Origin: an uncultured Lachnospiraceae bacterium
GTDB taxonomy: Bacteria > Bacillota > Clostridia > Lachnospirales > Lachnospiraceae
Reading direction: 5' to 3'
Length of the DNA stretch: 14,892 bases
NCBI GenBank assembly: GCA_947068385.1
Contig: CAMTBF010000026.1
Span: 1 to 14,892 of the forward strand
Shown: positions 1,920 through 14,892 of the stretch, in pieces
How the letters are laid out: each line of letters starts with the position of its first letter
Position numbering within the stretch: position 1 is the stretch's first letter
Notes under the pieces: model-generated
Databases searched by the model: none
The model's input: the letters and a program-made list of their open reading frames with translations, nothing else
What the model was told of the DNA's origin: nothing
Translations under genes and position numbers: made by a program

Positions 1920-4232
1920 ATGATAGAATTATTACAAGGCGGCGCGTACCTGGTAAACGGCAGGGAGATCATCGCCGACACGCCGGAGGCGCAGAAGGCG
2001 CTTTTGGCCAAAACAGGAAAGGAAATCACCAGGGAAGAGGCGGCGAAACAGACAATCAGCTACGGTATCCTGGAGAGCCACAACACCTCCGGCGATATGG
2101 ACAGGCTGAAGATCAGGTTCGACAAGCTCACCAGCCATGACATCACCTTCGTGGGCATCATCCAGACCGCCAGGGCCTCGGGGCTGCAGAAGTTCCCCAT
2201 GCCCTATGTGCTCACCAACTGCCACAATTCCCTGTGCGCCGTGGGCGGCACCATCAATGAGGACGACCATATGTTCGGCCTGACCTGCGCCAAGAAGTAC
2301 GGCGGCGTCTATGTGCCCCCTCACCAGGCGGTGATTCACCAGTACGCCAGGGAGATGCTCTCGGGCGGCGGGCAGATGATTTTAGGCTCAGATTCCCACA
2401 CGCGCTACGGGGCGCTGGGCACCATGGCCGTGGGCGAGGGCGGCCCGGAGCTGGTGAAGCAGTTGCTGAACCAGACCTATGACATTAACAGGCCCCAGGT
2501 GGTGGGCGTGTACCTGACGGGAGAGCCCGTGAAGGGCGTGGGCCCTCAGGACGTGGCCCTGGCCATCATCGGCGCCGTATTTAAGAACGGCTATGTGAAG
2601 AACAAGGTCATGGAGTTCGTAGGCCCCGGCGTGGCGTCCCTGAGCGCGGACTTCCGTATCGGCATCGATGTGATGACCACGGAGACCACATGCCTGTCGT
2701 CCATCTGGGAGACAGACCAGGAGATTGAGGACTTCTATGAAATCCACGGGCGCAAAGGCGACTACAGGAAGCTGGCCCCCGGGGAAGTGGCCTATTATGA
2801 CGGCATGATCCAGGTAGACCTGTCCAAGGTGCGGCCCATGATCGCCATGCCCTTCCATCCCAGCAACACCTATACCATAGAGGAGCTGAACGCTAATCTC
2901 ATGGACATCCTGGAGGAGACGGAGAAACGTGCTCTGGTGAGCCTGGGCGGCGCAAAGGGCCCGGACGGCGAACCCCTGCAGTTCCATTTAAGGGACAAGG
3001 TGAAGAACGGGAAGTTCATGGTGGAGCAGGGCATCATCGCGGGCTGCGCAGGCGGCGGCTTCGAGAACATCTGCGCCGCGGCCGACATCCTGAAGGGCAG
3101 CTCCATCGGCGCGGACAGCTTCACTTTGAGCGTGTACCCCGCATCCATGCCCGTGTATATGGAGCTGGTGAGAAACGGCTGTGCCGCGGCGATTATGGAG
3201 ACCGGCGCTGTCATGAAGACGGCCTTCTGCGGCCCCTGCTTCGGCGCGGGCGACACCCCGGCCAACAATGCGTTCAGCATCCGCCATTCCACCCGCAACT
3301 TCCCCAACAGGGAGGGAAGCAAGCTCCAGAACGGCCAGATTTCCTCCGTGGCCCTGATGGACGCCCGCTCCATCGCTGCCACAGCGGCCAACAAGGGCGT
3401 GCTGACCCCGGCCACGGACTTCGACGGGGAGATCGGGAAATACAAATATCATTTCGACAGCAAAATATACGCAAACCGCGTCTTCGACTCCAAGGGCGTG
3501 GCCGACCCTGACGTGGAGATCCAGCTTGGGCCCAACATCAAGGACTGGCCCGAGATGGGGGCGCTGCCGGAGAACCTTCTCCTGCAGGTGGTCAGCGAGA
3601 TCCACGACCCTGTCACCACCACGGACGAGCTGATTCCCTCCGGGGAGACCTCCTCCTACCGCTCCAATCCCCTGGGGCTGGCGGAGTTCACCTTAAGCCG
3701 CAAGGATCCGGAATATGTGGGCCGCGCCAAGGAGATCCAGAAGGCGGAGAAGGCCCGCATGGCCGGAGGGCATCCCTGCCAGGAGCTGCCCATCCTGAAG
3801 GAGCTGATGGGCGTGATCAAGGGGCAGTACCCGGAGGCCAACCATTCCAACACCGGCTTCGGCTCCACCATCTTCGCCGTGAAGCCCGGGGACGGCTCCG
3901 CCAGGGAGCAGGCCGCCTCCTGCCAGAAGGTGCTGGGGGGCTGGGCAAATATCGCCAACGAATACGCGACAAAGCGTTACCGTTCCAACCTGATCAACTG
4001 GGGCATGCTGCCCTTCCTTATCGAGGAGGGAGAGCTGCCCTTCCGGAATCTGGACTATCTCTTCCTTCCCGGCATCCGCAAGGCCGTGGAGGAGAAGGCG
4101 GAGACCATTGCCGCCTATACGGTGGGCAAGGACGGTCTGAGCGCCTTCGGACTGCGCCTGGGCGAGCTGACGGACGAGGAGCGGCAGATTATCCTGAAGG
4201 GCTGCCTGATCAATTACAACCGGGTGGGATGA
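1920..4232 (+). CDS. Aconitase-family hydratase (YbhJ-like), [4Fe-4S] enzyme
   Basis: A 770-residue member of the aconitase superfamily, predicted to dehydrate and rehydrate a di- or tricarboxylic acid such as citrate/isocitrate in the cytoplasm. The N-terminal catalytic domains carry GSDSHTRYG (156-164) and three Fe-S cysteines in aconitase positions: Cys376 in AGCAGG, and Cys437 and Cys440 in FCGPCFG. The C-terminal swivel domain has [11 protein letters not shown] (from 574) and [10 protein letters not shown] (657-666), matching the substrate-binding Ser/Arg loop GSSREHAA of mitochondrial aconitase. Length also fits the mitochondrial type and E. coli YbhJ. The start is taken at ATG 1920 because AGAGGAG ends 8 bases upstream; an in-frame ATG at 1869 would add 17 unremarkable residues and lacks a good ribosome site. 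Aconitase itself is the best guess for function, but no citrate synthase or isocitrate dehydrogenase gene is nearby, so another hydroxy acid is possible. Confidence 0.9.
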
Positions 4233-4387: not shown

Positions 4388-4936
4388 ATGTTGATTGAAC
4401 CAAGGGAGATGACGCTCCGAGCGGGAGGGCATGTCACCATCCGGAGCGCGGCGGCAGAGGACGCGGAGTCCCTCTGCGCCCACCGGACGATCACATCGGC
4501 GGAGACTTATTTCATGTCCCGGTATCCGGAGGAGTGCGATTATGACATAAGTGTCATGAGAGCCAACCTGACGGAGATCGCGGAGGATTCAAAATGCTTC
4601 ATGGTGACGGCCTTCCTGGAGGGGCGCGTTGTGGCGGACCTGGGGGTATCCTATGTCCGCCGCTACCTGAAATATTGCCACAGGGCCTACCTAGGGGTCT
4701 CTATCCAGCAGAGCTGCTGTAACTTAGGGCTGGGTGGCATCATGCTGGAGATCGCCATAGAGCAAAGCCGGAAGAACGGCTTCGAGCAGCTGGAGCTCGG
4801 CACCTTCGAGGACAACGCCAGGGCGCTCCACCTGTACGAAAAGCACGGCTTCCGGAGATACGGCGTCCAGCCCAGGGCCTTCAAGCTAAAGGACGGCACC
4901 TACCGGGATGAGGTCATCATGGTGAAGATGCTGTGA
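4388..4936 (+). CDS. GNAT family N-acetyltransferase
   Basis: A 182-residue Gcn5-type acetyltransferase, expected to move acetyl from acetyl-CoA to an unknown amine. The N-terminal part has the usual VTIRSAAAEDAESL opening. The acetyl-CoA loop is YLGVSIQQSCCNLGLGG (101-117), less Arg/Gly-rich than the typical RGxGIG. The C-terminal motif ARALHLYEKHGF (144-155) is standard. The start is uncertain. ATG 4388 is preceded by GGTGG at good spacing and gives a protein that begins right at the fold. An in-frame ATG at 4229 overlaps the hydratase stop (ATGA) but would add 53 residues of basic, low-complexity sequence (RRRREARRKREAKG), which I regard as untranslated or at least not part of the domain. 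The gene follows the hydratase on the same strand with no terminator and precedes the GH43 gene by 37 bases, so read-through is likely. The substrate is unknown. Confidence 0.85.
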   Translation: MLIEPREMTLRAGGHVTIRSAAAEDAESLCAHRTITSAETYFMSRYPEECDYDISVMRANLTEIAEDSKCFMVTAFLEGRVVADLGVSYVRRYLKYCHRAYLGVSIQQSCCNLGLGGIMLEIAIEQSRKNGFEQLELGTFEDNARALHLYEKHGFRRYGVQPRAFKLKDGTYRDEVIMVKML

Positions 4937-4973: not shown

Positions 4974-6758
4974 ATGACAGCATATCTGTTCGTACATTTC
5001 ATCGGTGAGCAAAAGGACGGGGAGCAGATTTACTTTTCGGTCAGCAGGGACGGGCTTCACTGGGAGGATCTGAATGACGGGAAACCGGTTCTTTATTCAC
5101 GAATCGGCATGAGGGGGGTCAGGGATCCATACCCGGTGCGCAGCCCCCTGGACGGCAAAATCTACCTCATCGCCACGGATCTGCGCATCCAGGCCGGACA
5201 TGGCTGGGAGGATGCCCAGTACAGGGGGAGCCGGGATCTGATCGTCTGGGAGTCGGAGGATCTGGTGCACTGGAGCGGGGAGAGGGCCTGCCAGGTAGGC
5301 TTGCCGGAAGCGGGCTGCGTATGGGCCCCGGAGGCCGTGTTCGACCGGGAGAGAGGGGAATTCCTGGTGTTCTTCGCCTCCATGGTAAAGGCCGCCTCGG
5401 AGGAGAGGAGCAAGCAGCGGATATACGCCGCGTACACAAAGGATTTCAGGGCATTTTCCGACACCTTCCTCTACATGGAGCGGGACGACCATGTCATCGA
5501 TACCACCATCCTGGAGAGCGGCGGCAGGTACTACCGCGTCTCCAAGGATGAGGTGACCAAGCGCCTGATCCTGGAGCAGGCGGATTCCCTGCTGGGGGAA
5601 TTCACCCAGATAGACTCCCCGATGCTGCGGGATCTGGTGGGCGTGGAGGGGCCGGAGGGGTACCGGCTGCCGGACGGGAGCTGGTGCCTGATCGCGGATC
5701 GGTTCCTGGAGGGGAAGGGATATCTGCCCATGGTGACGGAGAATCTGGATTCCGGAGAGTTTCGGATTCTTTCCCCGGAGCAGTACGACATGGGGGATAC
5801 GAAAAAGCGCCACGGCGGTGTCATGATGATTACAGAGAAGGAATACGAGGCGCTGCAGGAAGCGTATGGCAGAAAGAACCCGGTGGCGGAGGGGCTGTAC
5901 GCAGACCCTGACTTGTATTACGAGGATGGCGTGTATTATCTGTACCCCACCACGGACGGCTTCCCCCATTGGTCGGGAACGGAATTCTACGTGTTCACCT
6001 CCAAGGACGGCAGGCATTTCCGGAGAGGGGAGAGGATCCTGGACGTGTCCCGGGAGGTTCCCTGGGCCGTGGGCAGCGCCTGGGCGCCCTGCGTCACGAA
6101 AAAGGGAGAGGAGTATTTCTTCTACTTCTGCGCCAAGGACAAAAGCGGCACATCCTGCATCGGCGCAGCAACGGCAAAGTCCCCCACAGGGCCTTTCCGG
6201 GCCATGGAGGAGCCGCTGCTGACCATGGAGATGATGCACCGCAGAGGCATCCGCATGGGCCAGACCATCGACCCTTCCCTGTACTGGGAGGAGGACAGAT
6301 GCTTTCTGCTGTTCGGAAACGGAGCCGCTGCTATGGTGCGGCTGGCACAGGACATGCTCCATGTGGAGGAGGATACGCTGCAGAACATAGACGGACTTAC
6401 GGATTTCCGTGAAGCTGTGACCGTGCTGAAAAGAGGGGGCCTCTATCATTTCACCTGGTCCTGCGATGACACGGGCAGCGAGGACTATCATGTGAACTAC
6501 GGCGTGTCGGAAAAGCTGGAGGGGCCGGTGGAATTCAAATATCCCATTCTGCAGAAGGATGCCAGCCGTGGCATCCTGGGCACAGGCCACCACAGCATTC
6601 TGAAGCTGCCCGGCCGGGACAGCTACCTGATAGCGTACCACCGCTTCGGGACACCGCTGGAGGACTACCCCGAGGGGAAGGGCTGGCACAGGGAGCTGTG
6701 CGTCGGGCGGATTGGGTTTGACGCACAGGGATACATGCTGCCGGTGGAGGTGAGATGA
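4974..6758 (+). CDS. Tandem two-domain GH43 glycoside hydrolase (arabinosidase/xylosidase type)
   Basis: A 594-residue protein made of two five-bladed beta-propeller domains of glycoside hydrolase family 43, whose members act with inversion on arabinans, xylans and related plant polysaccharides. Domain 1 (about 1-285) has VRDP with Asp51 as likely base, VIDTTIL with Asp176 as pKa-setting acid, and VEGPEGY with Glu225 as likely acid. Domain 2 (about 300-594) repeats the scheme: YADPDLYY (Asp311), TIDPSLYW (Asp433) and FREAVTVL (Glu480). It also has GTGHHS (536-541), the His site that holds a metal in endo-arabinanases. There is no signal peptide or membrane segment, so it should act inside the cell on imported oligosaccharides. 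AGGGAG (4962-4967) lies 6 bases before the ATG. The exact bond cleaved cannot be assigned; arabinofuranosidase/arabinanase activity is favoured by domain 2. It is the last gene of the + strand run, before a strong terminator. Confidence 0.88.
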   Translation: MTAYLFVHFIGEQKDGEQIYFSVSRDGLHWEDLNDGKPVLYSRIGMRGVRDPYPVRSPLDGKIYLIATDLRIQAGHGWEDAQYRGSRDLIVWESEDLVHWSGERACQVGLPEAGCVWAPEAVFDRERGEFLVFFASMVKAASEERSKQRIYAAYTKDFRAFSDTFLYMERDDHVIDTTILESGGRYYRVSKDEVTKRLILEQADSLLGEFTQIDSPMLRDLVGVEGPEGYRLPDGSWCLIADRFLEGKGYLPMVTENLDSGEFRILSPEQYDMGDTKKRHGGVMMITEKEYEALQEAYGRKNPVAEGLYADPDLYYEDGVYYLYPTTDGFPHWSGTEFYVFTSKDGRHFRRGERILDVSREVPWAVGSAWAPCVTKKGEEYFFYFCAKDKSGTSCIGAATAKSPTGPFRAMEEPLLTMEMMHRRGIRMGQTIDPSLYWEEDRCFLLFGNGAAAMVRLAQDMLHVEEDTLQNIDGLTDFREAVTVLKRGGLYHFTWSCDDTGSEDYHVNYGVSEKLEGPVEFKYPILQKDASRGILGTGHHSILKLPGRDSYLIAYHRFGTPLEDYPEGKGWHRELCVGRIGFDAQGYMLPVEVR

Positions 6759-8694: not shown

Positions 8695-8742
8695 AAAAGA
8701 GTCACGATAGCAATGCATCCCACAGGAGAAAGGCGGCAGACA

Positions 8743-9582
8743 ATGGAACATCTAAAAACTGGAGAAGTCATCAGCAAGAGGCGCAGGGAGCTGGGCCTGA
8801 CCCAGAACCAGCTGGCAAAGACCCTGAACATTTCCTTCCAGGCGGTGTCGAAATGGGAGAACAGCACCGCCTACCCGGACATCGAGATGCTGCCTAAGCT
8901 GGCGGCGGCCCTGAACACCACCGTGGACGCCCTGCTGGGCTACCGCAGCGTGGTGACGGACTACGACAAGCGGTATGAGACAGAGGAATATTACTGGGGG
9001 CTCCAGCCCAACCGCATCTGCTACGACATCATGAAGCTCCTTCCCCCCATCAGGCCCTACCGGGTGCTGGACATGGGCTGCGGGGAGGGGAAGGATGCGG
9101 TGTTCCTGGCCAAATGCGGCTACAGCGTCACTGCCTTCGACATCTCGGAGCAGGGCATCGACAAGGCCAAGCGCCTGGCGGAGCACAACGCGGTGGCCGT
9201 AAGGCTTTTCAAGGCCGACATCCTGGACTACCAGCCGGATGACGACTACGATATCATCTTCAGCAGCGGCATGCTCCACTTCATCCCGAAGCCCCGCAGG
9301 CAGGAGCTCTGCGTCAGCTGTAAGGCCCATACCAGGGAGGGAGGGTTCAACGCGTTGAACGTCTTCGTCCGAAAGCCCTTCATCACCCGGGCCTGGGACA
9401 GCACCAGGGACGAAAAGCTGCGGCACCCCTGGCTTTCCGGGGAGCTGTTCGGCTATTACCACGACTGGCTGTTCCACACCTGCAGGGAGGAGGTCTTCGA
9501 CTGCAACAGCGGCGGCGTGCCCCATAAGCACTGCATGGACACCCTGATCGCCCAGAAGCTGGAAGCGGGGGCACAACTGTAG
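8743..9582 (+). CDS. XRE-type helix-turn-helix fused to a TehB-like SAM methyltransferase
   Basis: A 279-residue protein with two parts. Residues 6-67 form a Cro/CI-type (XRE) DNA-binding domain: ISKRRRELGLTQNQLAKTL, then the recognition-helix region SFQAVSKWENSTAYPD and the end LNTTVDALLG. From about 80 a class I methyltransferase follows, with SAM motif I VLDMGCGEGKDAVFLA (108-123), the acidic Asp133 ending the next strand, and motif IV region DIIFSSGMLHFI (170-181). The segment RRQELCVSCKAHTREGGFN and the order of motifs resemble tellurite-resistance methyltransferase TehB. It may sense or detoxify a small thiol or oxyanion and control its own gene, but the substrate and DNA target are unknown. 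ATG 8743 is preferred, with AGGAG (8724-8728) and AAAGG (8729-8733) upstream; ATG 8713 would add ten residues ahead of the ribosome sites. The gene is divergent from pruA and ends in a terminator. Confidence 0.88.
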   Translation: MEHLKTGEVISKRRRELGLTQNQLAKTLNISFQAVSKWENSTAYPDIEMLPKLAAALNTTVDALLGYRSVVTDYDKRYETEEYYWGLQPNRICYDIMKLLPPIRPYRVLDMGCGEGKDAVFLAKCGYSVTAFDISEQGIDKAKRLAEHNAVAVRLFKADILDYQPDDDYDIIFSSGMLHFIPKPRRQELCVSCKAHTREGGFNALNVFVRKPFITRAWDSTRDEKLRHPWLSGELFGYYHDWLFHTCREEVFDCNSGGVPHKHCMDTLIAQKLEAGAQL

Positions 9583-9588
9583 ACACAG

Positions 9589-9631
9589 AAATCCCCTCTC
9601 CGCCGGAAACCCCGGCAGGGAGGGGATTTTT
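9589..9631. terminator. Hairpin terminator, probably bidirectional
   Basis: AAATCCCCTC (9589-9598) pairs with GAGGGGATTT (9620-9629), and GCCGG (9602-9606) pairs with CCGGC (9612-9616) inside. T's at 9627-9631 make a U-tract for the + strand methyltransferase transcript. The opposite direction has A/T at the stem base and a weaker tail, and would serve the kinase gene whose stop is 14 bases away. Confidence 0.85.
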
Positions 9632-9644
9632 CATGCTTTATGCT

Positions 9645-12600
9645 TCATCCTAAATACTTGCCCAGGATCTTCAGGAACAGTTCGATGTCGATCGGCTTCG
9701 CCACATGGGCGTTCATGCCGTTCTTCAGGGCGTTCTCCTTGTCCTCCTCCATGGCGTTGGCCGTCATGGCGATGATGGGCAGGGTCTTCACGTCCTGCCT
9801 GGGCAGGGCCCGGATGGTCCTGGTGGCCTCGTAGCCGTCCATCACGGGCATCTGCACGTCCATGAGGACGGCATCGTAATAATGCTCCCCGGACTGGCGG
9901 ACCATGTCCACCGCATCCGTGCCGTCCGGCGCGGACTCCACCTCGAAGCCGGTCTCCGTCAGGATGGCCTCCGCGATCTCCCGGTTCAGCTCATTGTCCT
10001 CCACCAGGAGGATGCGCTTGCCGGAGAAATCCGCCTCTGTCCAGGAAGCGGGTTCCCCTTCCTTTTCGATGAGATGGTTGGCGGCCAGCAGGGCGGCCTT
10101 CAAGTCGGACATGAACAGCGGCTTGGCGCAGAAGGCGGTGACCCCTGCCTGCTTGGCCTCCTCCTCGATGTCCGTCCAGTCGTAGGCGGTGAGGATGATG
10201 ATGGGGGCTTCGCGGCCGATGGCCTCGCGGATGCGCCTGCAGGTCTCCAGCCCGCTCATCTCCGGCATCTGCCAGTCGATGATATAGGTGTGGTAGGAAT
10301 CCCCCTCATTGTAGGCGCTCTTCGCCCGATAGACCGCCTCCTTCCCGGAGGTGGTCCATTCCGCCCGCATGCCGATCTGGGCCAGCATCCTGCTCACGCT
10401 CTCGCAGCTGTCGCAGTCATCGTCCACCACGATGGCCCGAAGCCCCTCCAGCTCCTTGATCTGGGCCGCGTTCCGCTCGGTATCCTGGAGCTTTAGGCTC
10501 AGCTCCACCCTGAACTCGCTGCCCTGCCCCTTCTCGCTCTGGACGGTGATGGTGCCGCCCATCATCTCCACGATGTTCTTGGTGATGGCCATGCCTAAGC
10601 CCGTGCCCTGGATGCCGGTCTTGGTGGTGCTGGCCTCCCGCTCAAAGGGCTCGAAGATATGCTCCACGAAGTCCGGCGCCATGCCGATGCCATTGTCCTT
10701 GACGATGAAGACGTAGTCGCCCCTGCCCCGGTGGAAGGTGGACTGCTGCTGGATGCGGAAGCTCACGGTGCCTCCCGCGGGGGTGTACTTCACCGCATTG
10801 CTCAAGAGGTTCACGAAGACCTGGCTCAGCTTCAGGGGATCGGCGATCACGTCCTCGTTGTTCACGTTGAAGGTATCGATGAACAGGTCCAGCTGCTTGG
10901 CCGTCACCTGGGGCTGTATGATGTTCACCAGGTTGTGGGTCAGCTCGGAGATGTTGCACTCCTGCTCCTTGATCTGCACCTTTCCGCTCTCGATGCGGCT
11001 CATGTCCAGGATATCGTTGATCAGGCTCAGGAGGTGGTTGCTGGAGGAGAGCACCTTCTGCAGGCAGTCCCTCACCTGATCCCGGTTGTCGATATGGCTG
11101 GCCGCGATGGTGGCGAAGCCGATGATGGCGTTCATGGGGGTGCGGATGTCGTGGGACATATTGGAGAGGAAGGTGGTCTTGGCCTGGTTGGCCCTCTGGG
11201 CCTGCATCAGGGCGTCCTGCAGGGCGCGGGTCTGCTCCCGCTGCTTCTGCACCTGGGCGGTGATGTCCTTGGACACCACCATGACCATGATGTCCCCCGT
11301 GGCGCCCTCCCGGTTCATGATGAAGGACTGGCGCACGCACATGGGCTGCCTGGCCTCGCCAAAGCCCCAGTAATCCAGGTTGACGTCCATCTCACCCTGC
11401 TCGAAGCGCTGCCGCAGATGCTCTAAACTGACCACGGCCCCGTACTCCTCCAGGGATTCCTCCATGATGAAGGACTTCCAGCCCTCGAAGCATGCGGAGG
11501 CGGTGCAGGGGGCCGCCAGGCCGATCCTTTCCAGCAGGGAGACCTGCCGCCCGCCTACGGAGATGGTGATGTCCTGCTCGATGAGGTCGCGGCTGAGGTT
11601 GAACTCGAAGGTGCAGAAGGCCGTGGAGGTGATGGCTATCCGGTACTGCCGCTCCTTGCGGTTCATGACGGACAGCGCCTTCTGGCTCTGGAGCTCCCGC
11701 TGCTTCAGCTCCGTGATGTTCTGGCGGACGAACAGGATCCGGACGGCCCGCCCGGCCTCCCGCTGGAGGCGCACCGCTATCAGATGCTCCCAGTCCTCTT
11801 TCCCGTTCCGGGAGACATGGCATTCGTAGGTGAAGGTGTCCTGCTCCGAGAGGGCCTTTGCGATGGCTTCGGGGCTGAAGGCCTGGAGGAACCGTTCCTT
11901 CTCCTCCTCCTCGATGAGGTCCTGGGCATTGGCCCGCATGACGTCATCATAGGAGCCCTCCCTGGCCAGGCTGCTGCTCAGGGGCTGGATGCCGGCCAGG
12001 TAGGAATAGGTGTTGGTCTCCAGGTCCACCGTGAGATATCTGGAGGAAAAGAGGGTGTTCAGGCCGTCCAGCACATAGCCGAACTGGGTGTTCTGCTTTT
12101 CCAGGATCTTCCGCCGCATGCGGCTGTGGAACAGCAGGACGATGATATAGACGACGAACAGGCAGATCAGGATGACCTGCAGCACCATGCCTGCATGGTT
12201 GGCCTCATGGAGCATGGTCTGGGTCACGCTCTGGGGGAACGCCTGGACCAGTATGTACTCGCTGTCCGGTATGCGGAATACGCACAGATTGTCGGACAGG
12301 CTCTCAGGCGGGCACTGGAAGCCCGCGCTCTCGGTGCCGCTTTGGAAAGCCTCCCGCACCGCGTCGGCGGTGCCCGCATCGATGTTGCCGGATTCCAGGA
12401 GCAGATCGGCCAGAGGCCGGTCGCTGTTGCCTGCCACGGAGCTGGCGATGATCCCGCCGTCCTGGCTGCACAGATAGGCGTCCGCCGGTTCGCCGAAGTA
12501 GCTGGCGGTCAGCATGTCCCGGAGGTAATCCTCCGCGAAGTACAGCCCCAGCAGCACGCCGATGATCTCGCCGTCGTGCTCCACGGGGGCGTAGAATACC

Positions 12601-13040
12601 GTCATCATCTGGTCGGTGATCCTGGACCGGAGCACCTCCATGCCGCTCTTCCCCTGCATCCCGTTCAGGAAATAGTTCCGGTCCCGGCTGTCGTTGGTCT
12701 GCCCGTCGGAGGCCGTATTGAGGCCTTGGGCATTGGTGAAGCGGATGGCGTCGAAGGAGGCGTGCTCCTCCATCCCCCGGAGCAGCTCCGGGGTGATCTC
12801 CGGCCGGTCCTGGCTGATGCCCAGCAGATAGGCGTAGTTGCGCATCCGGAGCTGGGCGCTGTGGAACTCGCCCTTGATCCGCCTGGCCGTCTGGTCGGCG
12901 GAATCCATGGCGTAATTCAGGTTCTGCTTCTCGATTCGGAGCCTGTTGGTAGTGGAATACCATTGGAACAGCAGACTGATCCCCACCAGCAGGATGCAGA
13001 TATATACGATGTTCTTCCAGTTCTTTTTCGGTAAATGCAT
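9645..13040 (-). CDS. Membrane hybrid sensor histidine kinase with two receiver domains
   Basis: A 1131-residue hybrid kinase. TM1 (about 11-25) and TM2 (about 286-304) bracket an extracellular sensor of Cache type, including RDRNYFLNGMQGKSG and FYAPVEHDGEIIGVLLGLYF. Then comes a cytoplasmic region of about 300 residues that looks like two divergent PAS-type modules. HisKA follows with SHDIRTPMNAI (His630), then the ATPase with NLLSNAVKYTP (about 743), DNGIGM (about 780) and GTGLGM (about 810). Receiver 1 (about 867-985) has phospho-acceptor Asp922 in IIDWQMPEMSG; receiver 2 (about 1008-1128) has Asp1061 in LMDVQMPVMDG. No HPt or DNA-binding domain is present, so output must go through a separate phosphotransfer protein or an atypical route. 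The start is ATG 13040: AGGAGA (13051-13046) precedes it, and the promoter -10 box overlaps the upstream in-frame ATG at 13103, ruling that one out. The ligand is unknown. Divergent transcription from the amylosucrase gene hints at, but does not prove, a sugar-related role. Confidence 0.93.
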   Translation of the reverse strand: MHLPKKNWKNIVYICILLVGISLLFQWYSTTNRLRIEKQNLNYAMDSADQTARRIKGEFHSAQLRMRNYAYLLGISQDRPEITPELLRGMEEHASFDAIRFTNAQGLNTASDGQTNDSRDRNYFLNGMQGKSGMEVLRSRITDQMMTVFYAPVEHDGEIIGVLLGLYFAEDYLRDMLTASYFGEPADAYLCSQDGGIIASSVAGNSDRPLADLLLESGNIDAGTADAVREAFQSGTESAGFQCPPESLSDNLCVFRIPDSEYILVQAFPQSVTQTMLHEANHAGMVLQVILICLFVVYIIVLLFHSRMRRKILEKQNTQFGYVLDGLNTLFSSRYLTVDLETNTYSYLAGIQPLSSSLAREGSYDDVMRANAQDLIEEEEKERFLQAFSPEAIAKALSEQDTFTYECHVSRNGKEDWEHLIAVRLQREAGRAVRILFVRQNITELKQRELQSQKALSVMNRKERQYRIAITSTAFCTFEFNLSRDLIEQDITISVGGRQVSLLERIGLAAPCTASACFEGWKSFIMEESLEEYGAVVSLEHLRQRFEQGEMDVNLDYWGFGEARQPMCVRQSFIMNREGATGDIMVMVVSKDITAQVQKQREQTRALQDALMQAQRANQAKTTFLSNMSHDIRTPMNAIIGFATIAASHIDNRDQVRDCLQKVLSSSNHLLSLINDILDMSRIESGKVQIKEQECNISELTHNLVNIIQPQVTAKQLDLFIDTFNVNNEDVIADPLKLSQVFVNLLSNAVKYTPAGGTVSFRIQQQSTFHRGRGDYVFIVKDNGIGMAPDFVEHIFEPFEREASTTKTGIQGTGLGMAITKNIVEMMGGTITVQSEKGQGSEFRVELSLKLQDTERNAAQIKELEGLRAIVVDDDCDSCESVSRMLAQIGMRAEWTTSGKEAVYRAKSAYNEGDSYHTYIIDWQMPEMSGLETCRRIREAIGREAPIIILTAYDWTDIEEEAKQAGVTAFCAKPLFMSDLKAALLAANHLIEKEGEPASWTEADFSGKRILLVEDNELNREIAEAILTETGFEVESAPDGTDAVDMVRQSGEHYYDAVLMDVQMPVMDGYEATRTIRALPRQDVKTLPIIAMTANAMEEDKENALKNGMNAHVAKPIDIELFLKILGKYLG

Positions 13041-13045
13041 AAGAC

Positions 13046-13051
13046 TCTCCT
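13046..13051 (-). promoter_or_regulatory. Ribosome binding site that fixes the kinase start
   Basis: The - strand reads AGGAGA, five bases before ATG 13040, which opens MHLPKKNWKN directly before the first membrane helix. Longer in-frame starts (13103, 13196) lie at or upstream of the promoter. Confidence 0.75.
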
Positions 13052-13101
13052 CTGTCCGCCATGGCATTTCTGCCGGATTTCTGATAATAATCTGTTTTTC
13101 C

Positions 13102-13130
13102 ATTATACCACCTGTACGGCGATTTTTGAA
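13102..13130 (-). promoter_or_regulatory. Promoter of the hybrid kinase gene (extended -10)
   Basis: On the - strand TTCAAA (13130-13125), a 17-base spacer and a perfect TATAAT (13107-13102) preceded by TGG, an extended -10. The start point would be near 13095, giving a leader of about 55 bases before ATG 13040. Confidence 0.7.
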
Positions 13131-13149
13131 GATATATTTTTTGCCAGTC

Positions 13150-13178
13150 TTTACGGATTCCGAATAATGAGGTATACT
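13150..13178 (+). promoter_or_regulatory. Promoter of the LacI-remnant/amylosucrase gene
   Basis: TTTACG (13150-13155), a 17-base spacer and TATACT (13173-13178). The start point would be near 13185 and the leader about 60 bases. The -35 boxes of this and the divergent kinase promoter are only 19 bases apart, so regulators bound here could affect both. Confidence 0.65.
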
Positions 13179-13191
13179 GGGGGAAAGAAAT

Positions 13192-13205
13192 GACAACCGC
13201 TTGTC
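13192..13205 (+). promoter_or_regulatory. LacI-family operator candidate
   Basis: GACAACCGCTTGTC is a palindrome apart from one central pair of positions. It carries the AAnCGnTT core typical of LacI/GalR family operators (compare the cre core). It lies at about +8 to +21 of the predicted transcript, where a bound repressor would block initiation or elongation. It precedes a gene that begins with a LacI helix-turn-helix, consistent with an autoregulatory site of the lost repressor. Function is inferred. Confidence 0.6.
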
Positions 13206-13243
13206 CCATAGAAGGGCGGCAATGTGGAAAAGGGAGTGATGAA

Positions 13244-13315
13244 ATGGCTATGTTGAAGGATGTGGCGAGGGAATCGGGGCTTACGGTAGGCACGGAGTCC
13301 CGGGTGCTGGACAAT
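13244..13315 (+). pseudogene. Remnant of a LacI-family repressor gene (first ~24 codons)
   Basis: The first residues after ATG 13244 include KDVARESGLTVGTESRVL. This matches the N-terminal helix-turn-helix of LacI-family repressors, whose usual form is LKDVAKESGLTVGTVSRVLNN. Similarity stops at about Asn24, and the amylosucrase N-terminal domain follows in frame. A Glu stands where the second helix normally has Val (GTVSRVL), so even the remaining helix is no longer ideal. The hinge helix and sugar-binding domain are gone. Confidence 0.75.
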
Positions 13316-14892
13316 ACTTTTGAGGAACGGCTGGCAAGGCATCATGACGAGCTGCGCTGGCTCTACATGGAGCTGTACCACAACGGGGACATGTTCGCCG
13401 AGCTGTGCGACAATATGGAGAGATTCTACAGGGAGCGGGACCAGGGGCTGAAGGCCATGGACGCGGAGAGGGAGGACTGCCCGGACTGGTACAAGGGCAA
13501 CGGCCTGCTGGGCATGATGTTCTATATAGACAATTTCGCGGGGAACATGAAGGGCGTGACCGAAAAGCTGGACTATATTGAGCGGTGCGGCGTGAACTAC
13601 ATCCATCTGATGCCCTTCCTGGACACCCCCAAGGGCAGGTCCGACGGGGGGTACGCCGTGTCGGATTTCCGGAAGGTGCAGGAAAATCTGGGATCCATGG
13701 AGGATCTGGAGCGCCTTACGGCCGCCTGCCACAAAAAGGGGATCAATGTGTGCATGGATTTTGTCATGAACCACACCTCGGAGGAGCACGACTGGGCAAG
13801 GCGGGCCCGCCAGGGGGACGGGGAATACATGAGCCGGTATTTTTTCTATGACAATGGGGACATCCCCTCCCGGTACGAGCAGACGGTGCCCCAGGTATTC
13901 CCTACCACGGCCCCGGGGAACTTCACCTGGCTGCCTGACTGCGGCCATTATGTGATGACCACGTTCTATCCCTACCAGTGGGACCTGAACTACCGCAACC
14001 CCAGGGTATTCAATGAAATGATGTACAATTTCCTGTATCTGGCAGGCAGGGGGATTGACATCATCCGCATCGATGCGGTACCCTATATCTGGAAGGAGCT
14101 GGGCACCAGCTGCCGCAACCTCCCCCAGGTGCATACGATTGTGCGCATGATGCGCATGATTGGAGAAATCGTCTGTCCGGGCATCCTGCTGCTGGGGGAG
14201 GTGGTCATGGAGCCGGAGAAGGTGGTGCCCTACTTCGGCACGGTGGAGAAGCCGGAGTGCCATATGCTCTACAATGTGACCACCATGGCAACTACCTGGC
14301 ATACGGTGGCCACCAGGGACGTGAGGCTCTTGAAGCGCCAGCTGGATATCGTGAACTCCCTGCCCAAGGAATACGTGTTCCTGAATTACCTGCGCTGCCA
14401 TGACGACATCGGCTGGGGGCTGGACTATCCCGCCCTGAAGGGGGAGGGCATCGAGGAGCGCTCCCACAAGAAGTACTTAAACGACTATTTCCAGGGCTAC
14501 GCCGGGGACAGCGAGAGCCGGGGGGAGCTCTACAACGCGGATCCCGTGACGGGGGACGCCAGGTTCTGCGGCACCACGGCCTCCATGTGCGGCATTGAGA
14601 AGGCAGGGTTCGAGCAGGATGGGGAGGCCATGGAGAGGGCCATCCGCAAGGATGTGATGCTCCACGCCTACATGTTCATGCAGTCCGGCATCCCGGTGCT
14701 CTACGGCGGGGATGAGATTGCCCAGGTGAATGACTATACCTACAAGGAGAATCCGGACAAGGCGGCGGACTCCAGATACATCCACCGGGGAGCCATGAAC
14801 TGGGAGCTGGCAGGCAACATAGACGACCCCGACACCGTGGAGGGGAAGCTCTTCGGAAGGCTGAAGGCCCTGGAGGAGATCCGGAAGCGGGA
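13244..14892 (+). CDS. Amylosucrase-like GH13 enzyme with LacI-derived N-terminus (3' end beyond window)
   Basis: The visible 549 residues match amylosucrase (GH13 subfamily 4), a transglucosylase that builds alpha-1,4-glucan from sucrose and frees fructose; a sucrose hydrolase of the same subfamily is possible. From residue 26 (FEERLARHHDELRWLY) the helical N-domain is recognisable, then FYIDNFAGNMKGV and the barrel: SDGGYAVSDF (Asp134), DFVMNHTSEEH (His177), IRIDAVPYIWK with nucleophile Asp277, LGEVV with acid/base Glu319, and CHDDIGW with Asp387 and Asp388. Spacing is close to the Neisseria enzyme (286, 328, 393). The sucrose-holding salt-bridge pair corresponding to Asp144/Arg509 is kept (Asp134, Arg511 in DSRYIHR). 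The start has AGGGAG (13231-13236) 7 bases upstream. About 80-90 C-terminal residues should lie outside the window. Residues 1-24 come from a LacI-type repressor; without them the next Met is residue 42, inside the N-domain. No signal peptide: cytoplasmic. Confidence 0.9.
   Translation, partial: MAMLKDVARESGLTVGTESRVLDNTFEERLARHHDELRWLYMELYHNGDMFAELCDNMERFYRERDQGLKAMDAEREDCPDWYKGNGLLGMMFYIDNFAGNMKGVTEKLDYIERCGVNYIHLMPFLDTPKGRSDGGYAVSDFRKVQENLGSMEDLERLTAACHKKGINVCMDFVMNHTSEEHDWARRARQGDGEYMSRYFFYDNGDIPSRYEQTVPQVFPTTAPGNFTWLPDCGHYVMTTFYPYQWDLNYRNPRVFNEMMYNFLYLAGRGIDIIRIDAVPYIWKELGTSCRNLPQVHTIVRMMRMIGEIVCPGILLLGEVVMEPEKVVPYFGTVEKPECHMLYNVTTMATTWHTVATRDVRLLKRQLDIVNSLPKEYVFLNYLRCHDDIGWGLDYPALKGEGIEERSHKKYLNDYFQGYAGDSESRGELYNADPVTGDARFCGTTASMCGIEKAGFEQDGEAMERAIRKDVMLHAYMFMQSGIPVLYGGDEIAQVNDYTYKENPDKAADSRYIHRGAMNWELAGNIDDPDTVEGKLFGRLKALEEIRKR

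Follow-up and report, generated by a model that had tools for sequence, protein, structure and literature searches.

Repressors fused to the gene that they control are a classical product of the laboratory, and the E. coli lacI-lacZ deletion fusions of Mueller-Hill and Kania are said to have been selected there with nearly the whole of the repressor kept. Repressors of the LacI type and amylosucrases are also found together in unfused arrangements. At the sux locus of Xanthomonas campestris the LacI-type regulator SuxR controls both the amylosucrase-type gene suxB and itself, and the account of a suxR mutant without sucrose gives increases of 176-fold for suxB and 10-fold for suxR (PMC1790865). 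A fructan cluster of Faecalibacterium prausnitzii is described as containing a LacI regulator, an ABC transporter, and an amylosucrase (PMC8894670). Finally, experimental evolution of Pseudomonas fluorescens SBW25 has yielded deletions by which a gene becomes the in-frame extension of the one upstream of it; transcription reportedly rose 23- and 219-fold in two of these fusions, while a third showed a nonsignificant 3.9-fold increase (eLife 2015, PMC4395868).

The stretch of DNA analyzed here, which we refer to as the window (14,892 nucleotides), is probably a natural case of deletion fusion with the operon's own repressor as the donor, and comparison with these systems reveals several differences. 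First, the SBW25 fusions arose under laboratory selection and involve diguanylate cyclases, and the available text does not describe the donors as the target's own repressor (PMC4395868), whereas the donor in the window would be the repressor of its own operon. Secondly, the sux genes of X. campestris are presented as intact and separate and are associated with TonB-type uptake (PMC1790865), whereas those of the window are fused. Thirdly, the F. prausnitzii cluster is similar in gene content and also belongs to a gut member of the Bacillota, but no fusion is described in the available text of that report (PMC8894670). Among the matches listed in searches of the open-access literature there was no natural lacI-amylosucrase fusion, nor any other comparable fusion beyond the SBW25 examples; deletion fusion with capture of a promoter is a known kind of event, and we know of no earlier report of a lacI-amylosucrase example. 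As in the E. coli lacI-lacZ fusions, a repressor gene appears to have been fused by deletion to an adjacent enzyme gene, but those reportedly retain an almost complete repressor, whereas only half of a helix-turn-helix remains in the window.

The window corresponds to the whole of contig C26 in a draft assembly (G000) of 581 contigs that is 89.5% complete. The fusion ORF begins with the ATG at 13244 and its frame remains open to the contig end at 14892, the nearest upstream in-frame stop being at 13127; it encodes 24 residues of a LacI-type helix-turn-helix followed in the same frame by an amylosucrase. We consider it likely that a deletion in this lineage destroyed the sucrose repressor and joined lacI codons 1–24 in frame to the amylosucrase gene, with the enzyme now using the lacI promoter, ribosome-binding site, and start codon. 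The closest genome found to that of the window, G063, serves as a reference for both halves. DNA alignment pairs window positions 9600–13314 with G063 contig C285, which carries the kinase and lacI genes (88%), and positions 13314–14892 with a separate contig, C376, which carries the amylosucrase gene (93%). Because the two matches meet at 13314 the break is sharp at that position, and the junction (13314..13315, + strand) coincides with the one placed near 13315 in an earlier sequence-only reading of this DNA. The segment from 13116 to 13314, with the promoter and leader included, matches the lacI region of G063 at 86% (E 1e-62), and since the match extends through the promoter and leader a chance resemblance of the stub is excluded. 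The join is in frame, for which the chance expectation is 1 in 3, and comparison of both sides of the break shows about one shared base. A longer homology at the junction is possible, in that the enzyme start inferred from the Met-Asp-Lys of the close relative P0001 may resemble lacI CTGAACAA. A crossover at such a CTGAACAA-like start with the loss of six bases may also account for the codon behind the N23D change, and an equally short route is a single-step join that uses about one shared base and is accompanied by one substitution.

The LacI stub (codons 1–24; 13244..13315, + strand) contains helix 1 and the recognition helix only, as seen from Pfam, alignment to G063, and comparison with orthologues. 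Residues 1–24 had been read as a LacI helix-turn-helix, and 21 of the 24 are indeed identical to those of the intact G063 lacI. Residues 4–25 match positions 2–23 of the 46 in the Pfam LacI profile (PF00356), with scores of 16.4 bits for the whole ORF and 20.1 bits for its first 69 amino acids; both are below the curated cut-off of 27, reflecting the presence of only half a domain. The ORF has no complete 46-position LacI helix-turn-helix domain, the missing profile positions being those that we take to correspond to helix 3 and the hinge, and Pfam finds no sugar-binding (periplasmic-binding-protein-like) domain in it, whereas the intact orthologue of G026 has one. The stub residues M3, E18, and D23 are found in none of the 107 lacI orthologues counted, of which 105 have T3 and every one has V18 and N23 (the set is the 120 listed proteins minus 13 missed by the motif, and those 13 show the same Val and Asn by eye). 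The invariance of this valine supports the earlier suggestion that the Val-to-Glu change reflects decay. On the window branch there are three nonsynonymous and two synonymous changes in the stub versus four and 44 in the enzyme (one-sided Fisher p 0.013, on small numbers, or 0.061 without N23D, a change for which the second codon of the native enzyme is a possible source). For the enzyme, the G063 branch carries 17 nonsynonymous and 33 synonymous changes, with seven and nine unplaced, and across the same 24 codons ten pairs of intact lacI genes have 0–3 nonsynonymous and 1–17 synonymous differences. The neighboring kinase gene has 192 nonsynonymous and 198 synonymous differences from that of G063, and these numerous replacements, which suggest that the lineage tolerates protein change elsewhere too, count against the stub-decay argument. 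With a glutamate in the recognition helix and the remaining domain absent, DNA binding by the half helix-turn-helix is unlikely.

The amylosucrase part (GH13; 13316..14892, + strand) is cut by the end of the contig, and the C-terminal end of the enzyme is thus unseen. Residues 96–365 match Pfam Alpha-amylase (E 2e-51), and solved amylosucrases match at E 2e-133 and weaker. The best of these, 7esh_A (E 2e-133), aligns from residue 25, in keeping with the earlier assignment of amylosucrase from residue 26; the leading entries of the PDB listing mostly align from residues 24–26, and the first 18 are amylosucrases or sucrose hydrolases, one being named 'amylosucrase or alpha amylase'. D277, E319, and D388, which we take to be the catalytic Asp, Glu, and Asp of amylosucrase, occupy invariant columns in 20 aligned sequences, the window included, and from its sequence and these residues the enzyme part is predicted to be a GH13 amylosucrase. 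There are no private changes at strongly conserved columns of an alignment of 120 relatives and the window, and the three deviations at columns with at least 95% conservation are all common to P0001. This protein differs from the window enzyme at only eight of 525 residues and has a normal N-terminus, MDKTHTFEERL. Another relative, P0241, begins like P0001 but differs from it at 129 of 525 positions (ungapped), nearly all from residue 122 onwards, and is probably chimeric. Among the NCBIfam matches listed, no model exceeds its cut-off for the fusion ORF, for P0001, or for the lacI of G063.

The N-terminus of the fusion is unusual for the family. The sequence-only reading had raised the alternative that amylosucrases of this clade carry such an N-terminus by coincidence, and this can be rejected, as a LacI motif is absent from the first 140 residues of all 230 relatives inspected (the best 120 of 7,994 and 110 further proteins from the best 120 of 2,617). 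Among the 30 genomes of the genus with this amylosucrase, its own included, residues 1–8 are covered only by the window's own match; the match in G036 begins at residue 9, and a motif scan shows no helix-turn-helix motif there. The number of residues ahead of the LRWLY motif varies from 14 to 174 in relatives and is 37 in the window, so an added tail should be tolerated. Several relatives, including P0061, P0091, and P0114, are extended at the N-terminus by about 100 or more residues rich in Ala, Glu, and Lys. The enzyme part had been noted to lack a start codon before residue 42, and the ATG of codon 42 (13367) is indeed the first in-frame ATG, GTG, or TTG beyond the junction; an in-frame GTG at codon 21 (13304) lies inside the stub and was absent from that account.

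The amylosucrase gene is present in 30 of 138 genomes of the genus (own included; E 1e-100 or better), and this lacI in four (G026, G116, G059, and G063; E 1e-110 or better). In three of these four lacI is upstream of the amylosucrase gene on the same strand and contig, and in G063 both are at contig ends. The arrangement that had been proposed for relatives, a complete lacI followed by a separate amylosucrase gene, is thus seen in G026, G116, and G059, where both genes are intact and in the same order. On one strand of both G026 and G116 the genes are arranged as lacI, solute-binding protein, two permeases, amylosucrase, GH32, and MATE (the G026 proteins being named by Pfam). In G059, as in L028, which is more distant, an N gap lies in the interval between lacI and the amylosucrase gene downstream. 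The earlier proposal that some 300 lacI codons and the enzyme start were deleted holds in that both, along with the enzyme's leader, are absent from the window, but needs refinement, as lacI and the amylosucrase gene of G026 and G116 are separated by three transporter genes. Contig C285 of G063 contains the divergent histidine kinase gene and an intact lacI encoding 325 amino acids from the ATG at 4630 (350 in the mechanical ORF), and contig C376 contains the amylosucrase gene with its own start, MGKTHTFEERL. Positions 1–186 of C376 (L137), ahead of the amylosucrase gene, resemble a deletion scar. This stretch is similar first to the promoter of the G026 solute-binding protein gene (84% over 76 bases) and then to the end of the second permease gene (80% over 71 bases compared to G047), and these remnants suggest that most of the transporter was probably lost from G063 in an earlier deletion. 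The fusion would have removed at least about 1.3 kb if the ancestor was G063-like and about 4.65 kb if it was G026-like.

To the left of the fusion is the divergent histidine kinase gene (9645..13103, − strand), with Pfam matches to HisKA, HATPase_c, and two Response_reg stretches corresponding to two receiver domains; its product is 87% identical to that encoded beside the intact lacI in G063. Window positions 8737–9579 contain an ORF with HTH_3 and methyltransferase domains, a second helix-turn-helix–enzyme combination in the window and a conserved one, being present in G063 at 93%. The interval between lacI and the amylosucrase gene seems hard to assemble in several relatives. In L028 a 68-base direct repeat (3449–3516 and 3694–3761; 98.5% identical) flanks the N gap between the two genes, and the end of C285 in G063 (L108, about 5809–5858) has adapter-like sequence, presumably from a Nextera adapter. 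The DNA downstream of lacI does not appear as a dispersed repeat in five genomes, matching only its own place in G063, with an inverted self-match, and a short stretch behind lacI in G026.

The control region of lacI is retained in the window. A putative promoter, now probably that of the fusion, is located at 13150..13178 (+ strand; TTTACG and TATACT separated by 17 bases, with nine of 12 consensus matches); the promoter scan reports four sites, versus 0.6 in shuffles, and the same elements are visible by eye in the G063 lacI leader. A candidate autoregulatory LacI operator, the inverted repeat TGACAACCGCTTGTCC with a central CG, lies at 13191..13206 (+ strand). On visual inspection, similar central-CG inverted repeats occupy the corresponding position of the lacI leader in G026, G116, G059, G063, and G047, and in relatives a similar repeat overlaps the −35 element of the binding-protein or enzyme promoter, where it may also act as an operator. 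The lacI ribosome-binding site, GGGAG (13232..13236, + strand), is seven bases before the ATG at 13244, and its calculated pairing with a generic 16S tail is −11.4 kcal/mol, equal to that of the G063 lacI.

The ancestral LacI would, like SuxR acting on suxB in Xanthomonas, repress its own gene together with the sucrose genes. The deletion would have taken lacI from codon 25 onwards, everything between lacI and the amylosucrase gene, and the enzyme's own promoter, leader, start codon, and first five codons, a single event removing the repressor and the enzyme promoter together. Transcription and translation of the enzyme would then proceed from the lacI signals, giving a protein with a 24-residue tail in place of about five native residues and a half helix-turn-helix that would be unable to bind DNA. 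Loss of the cognate repressor would free expression from sucrose control, corresponding to the loss of local repression predicted previously, and the enzyme is probably either expressed constitutively, at the level set by the lacI promoter, or governed by another regulator.

The main rival explanation is an artefact of assembly or library construction, in which a chimeric read, or a scaffolder joining contig ends without Ns over a stretch that is difficult to assemble, would have created the junction and the real genome would keep both genes intact. We regard this as unlikely, although it deserves serious weight: the draft is fragmented into its 581 contigs, the junction is close to a contig end (1.6 kb beyond it, inside the enzyme gene), G059, L028, and G063 each have an N gap or a contig end at the lacI-amylosucrase interval, P0001 has a normal start, and P0241, which looks like a chimera of two amylosucrases, indicates that chimeric assemblies occur among such sequences. 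However, the join is in frame and within ordinary coding sequence, only about one base is shared at the break, three conserved stub residues are changed, and a comparable deletion is present on a long contig of G047. Furthermore, the missing part of lacI is not found elsewhere in G000, where the nearest paralogue is 34% identical, and the DNA before and behind the G063 amylosucrase gene, as well as the transporter, is not found there either, weak matches elsewhere aside; with this genome about 10% incomplete and the transporter search lacking a positive control, these absences are modest evidence.

A second alternative, which we consider improbable, accepts the deletion but has the enzyme made mainly from the GTG of codon 21. 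The V18E change turned GGTG into GGAG (13294–13297), six bases ahead of this in-frame GTG (the possible, and speculative, internal start thus spanning 13294..13306, + strand), and the product would begin MLDNTFEERL, near the native N-terminus of P0001. The calculated pairing of −6.1 kcal/mol is, however, weaker than that of the lacI site and no better than with the codon 18 of relatives (−8.2 kcal/mol), 36 of 45 single changes ahead of the GTG reach the window's pairing value, and the idea arose after the fact. Least probable of all, and in our view very improbable, is a working chimera in which the LacI stub still touches the operator, as the sequence-only reading had allowed, and the enzyme regulates its own promoter, for despite the close match of the stub to G063 and the candidate operator just upstream, only profile positions 2–23 remain and V18E alters the recognition helix at an invariant residue.

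The deletion fusion that we favor has a counterpart in G047, which has a truncated lacI in a 276,778-base contig (minus strand, at about 1500–1750 of L186, which is G047:C5:211000–216000; the same place is covered by L140 and L009). Here the first 28 lacI codons, preceded by the lacI promoter, candidate operator, and ribosome-binding site, run out of frame into the second permease gene at about residue 53, and the amylosucrase gene is next after it. A search of G047 at E 1e-110 did not recover the remainder of lacI, and the genes for the binding protein and first permease are absent from the 5 kb examined. This deletion is independent of that in the window, and it places the lacI promoter ahead of the transporter and amylosucrase genes. 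A motif scan of 115 loci, which left out the window's own, gave seven hits in all and a short lacI only in G047 (three overlapping loci at one place). The left ends of the window and G047 deletions are 13 bases apart in lacI. A DNA hairpin at lacI codons 24–28 was considered as a deletion hot spot and rejected, folding being no better than in shuffles (three sequences, z −0.44, 0.52, and −1.09).

We speculate, with considerable doubt, that the sucrose operon has been repeatedly rewired by deletions ending just behind the LacI helix-turn-helix, at codon 24 in the window and codon 28 in G047, each of which would kill the repressor and hand its autoregulated promoter to the remaining sucrose genes; in the window, V18E may add a ribosome-binding site that restores a near-native start. 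The case is of interest mainly because the ancestral, sister, and parallel states are all available, and since the genus provides a second, independent truncation besides the ancestral and sister arrangements, the step from a sucrose-induced to an uninduced amylosucrase is testable in a known direction. It also carries a warning for annotation, in that an enzyme with a partial LacI match may simply bear the scar of a deletion instead of representing a new regulatory architecture. If repeated rewiring is true, it would represent a natural and recurrent route from induced to constitutive conversion of sucrose to glucan in gut Lachnospiraceae.
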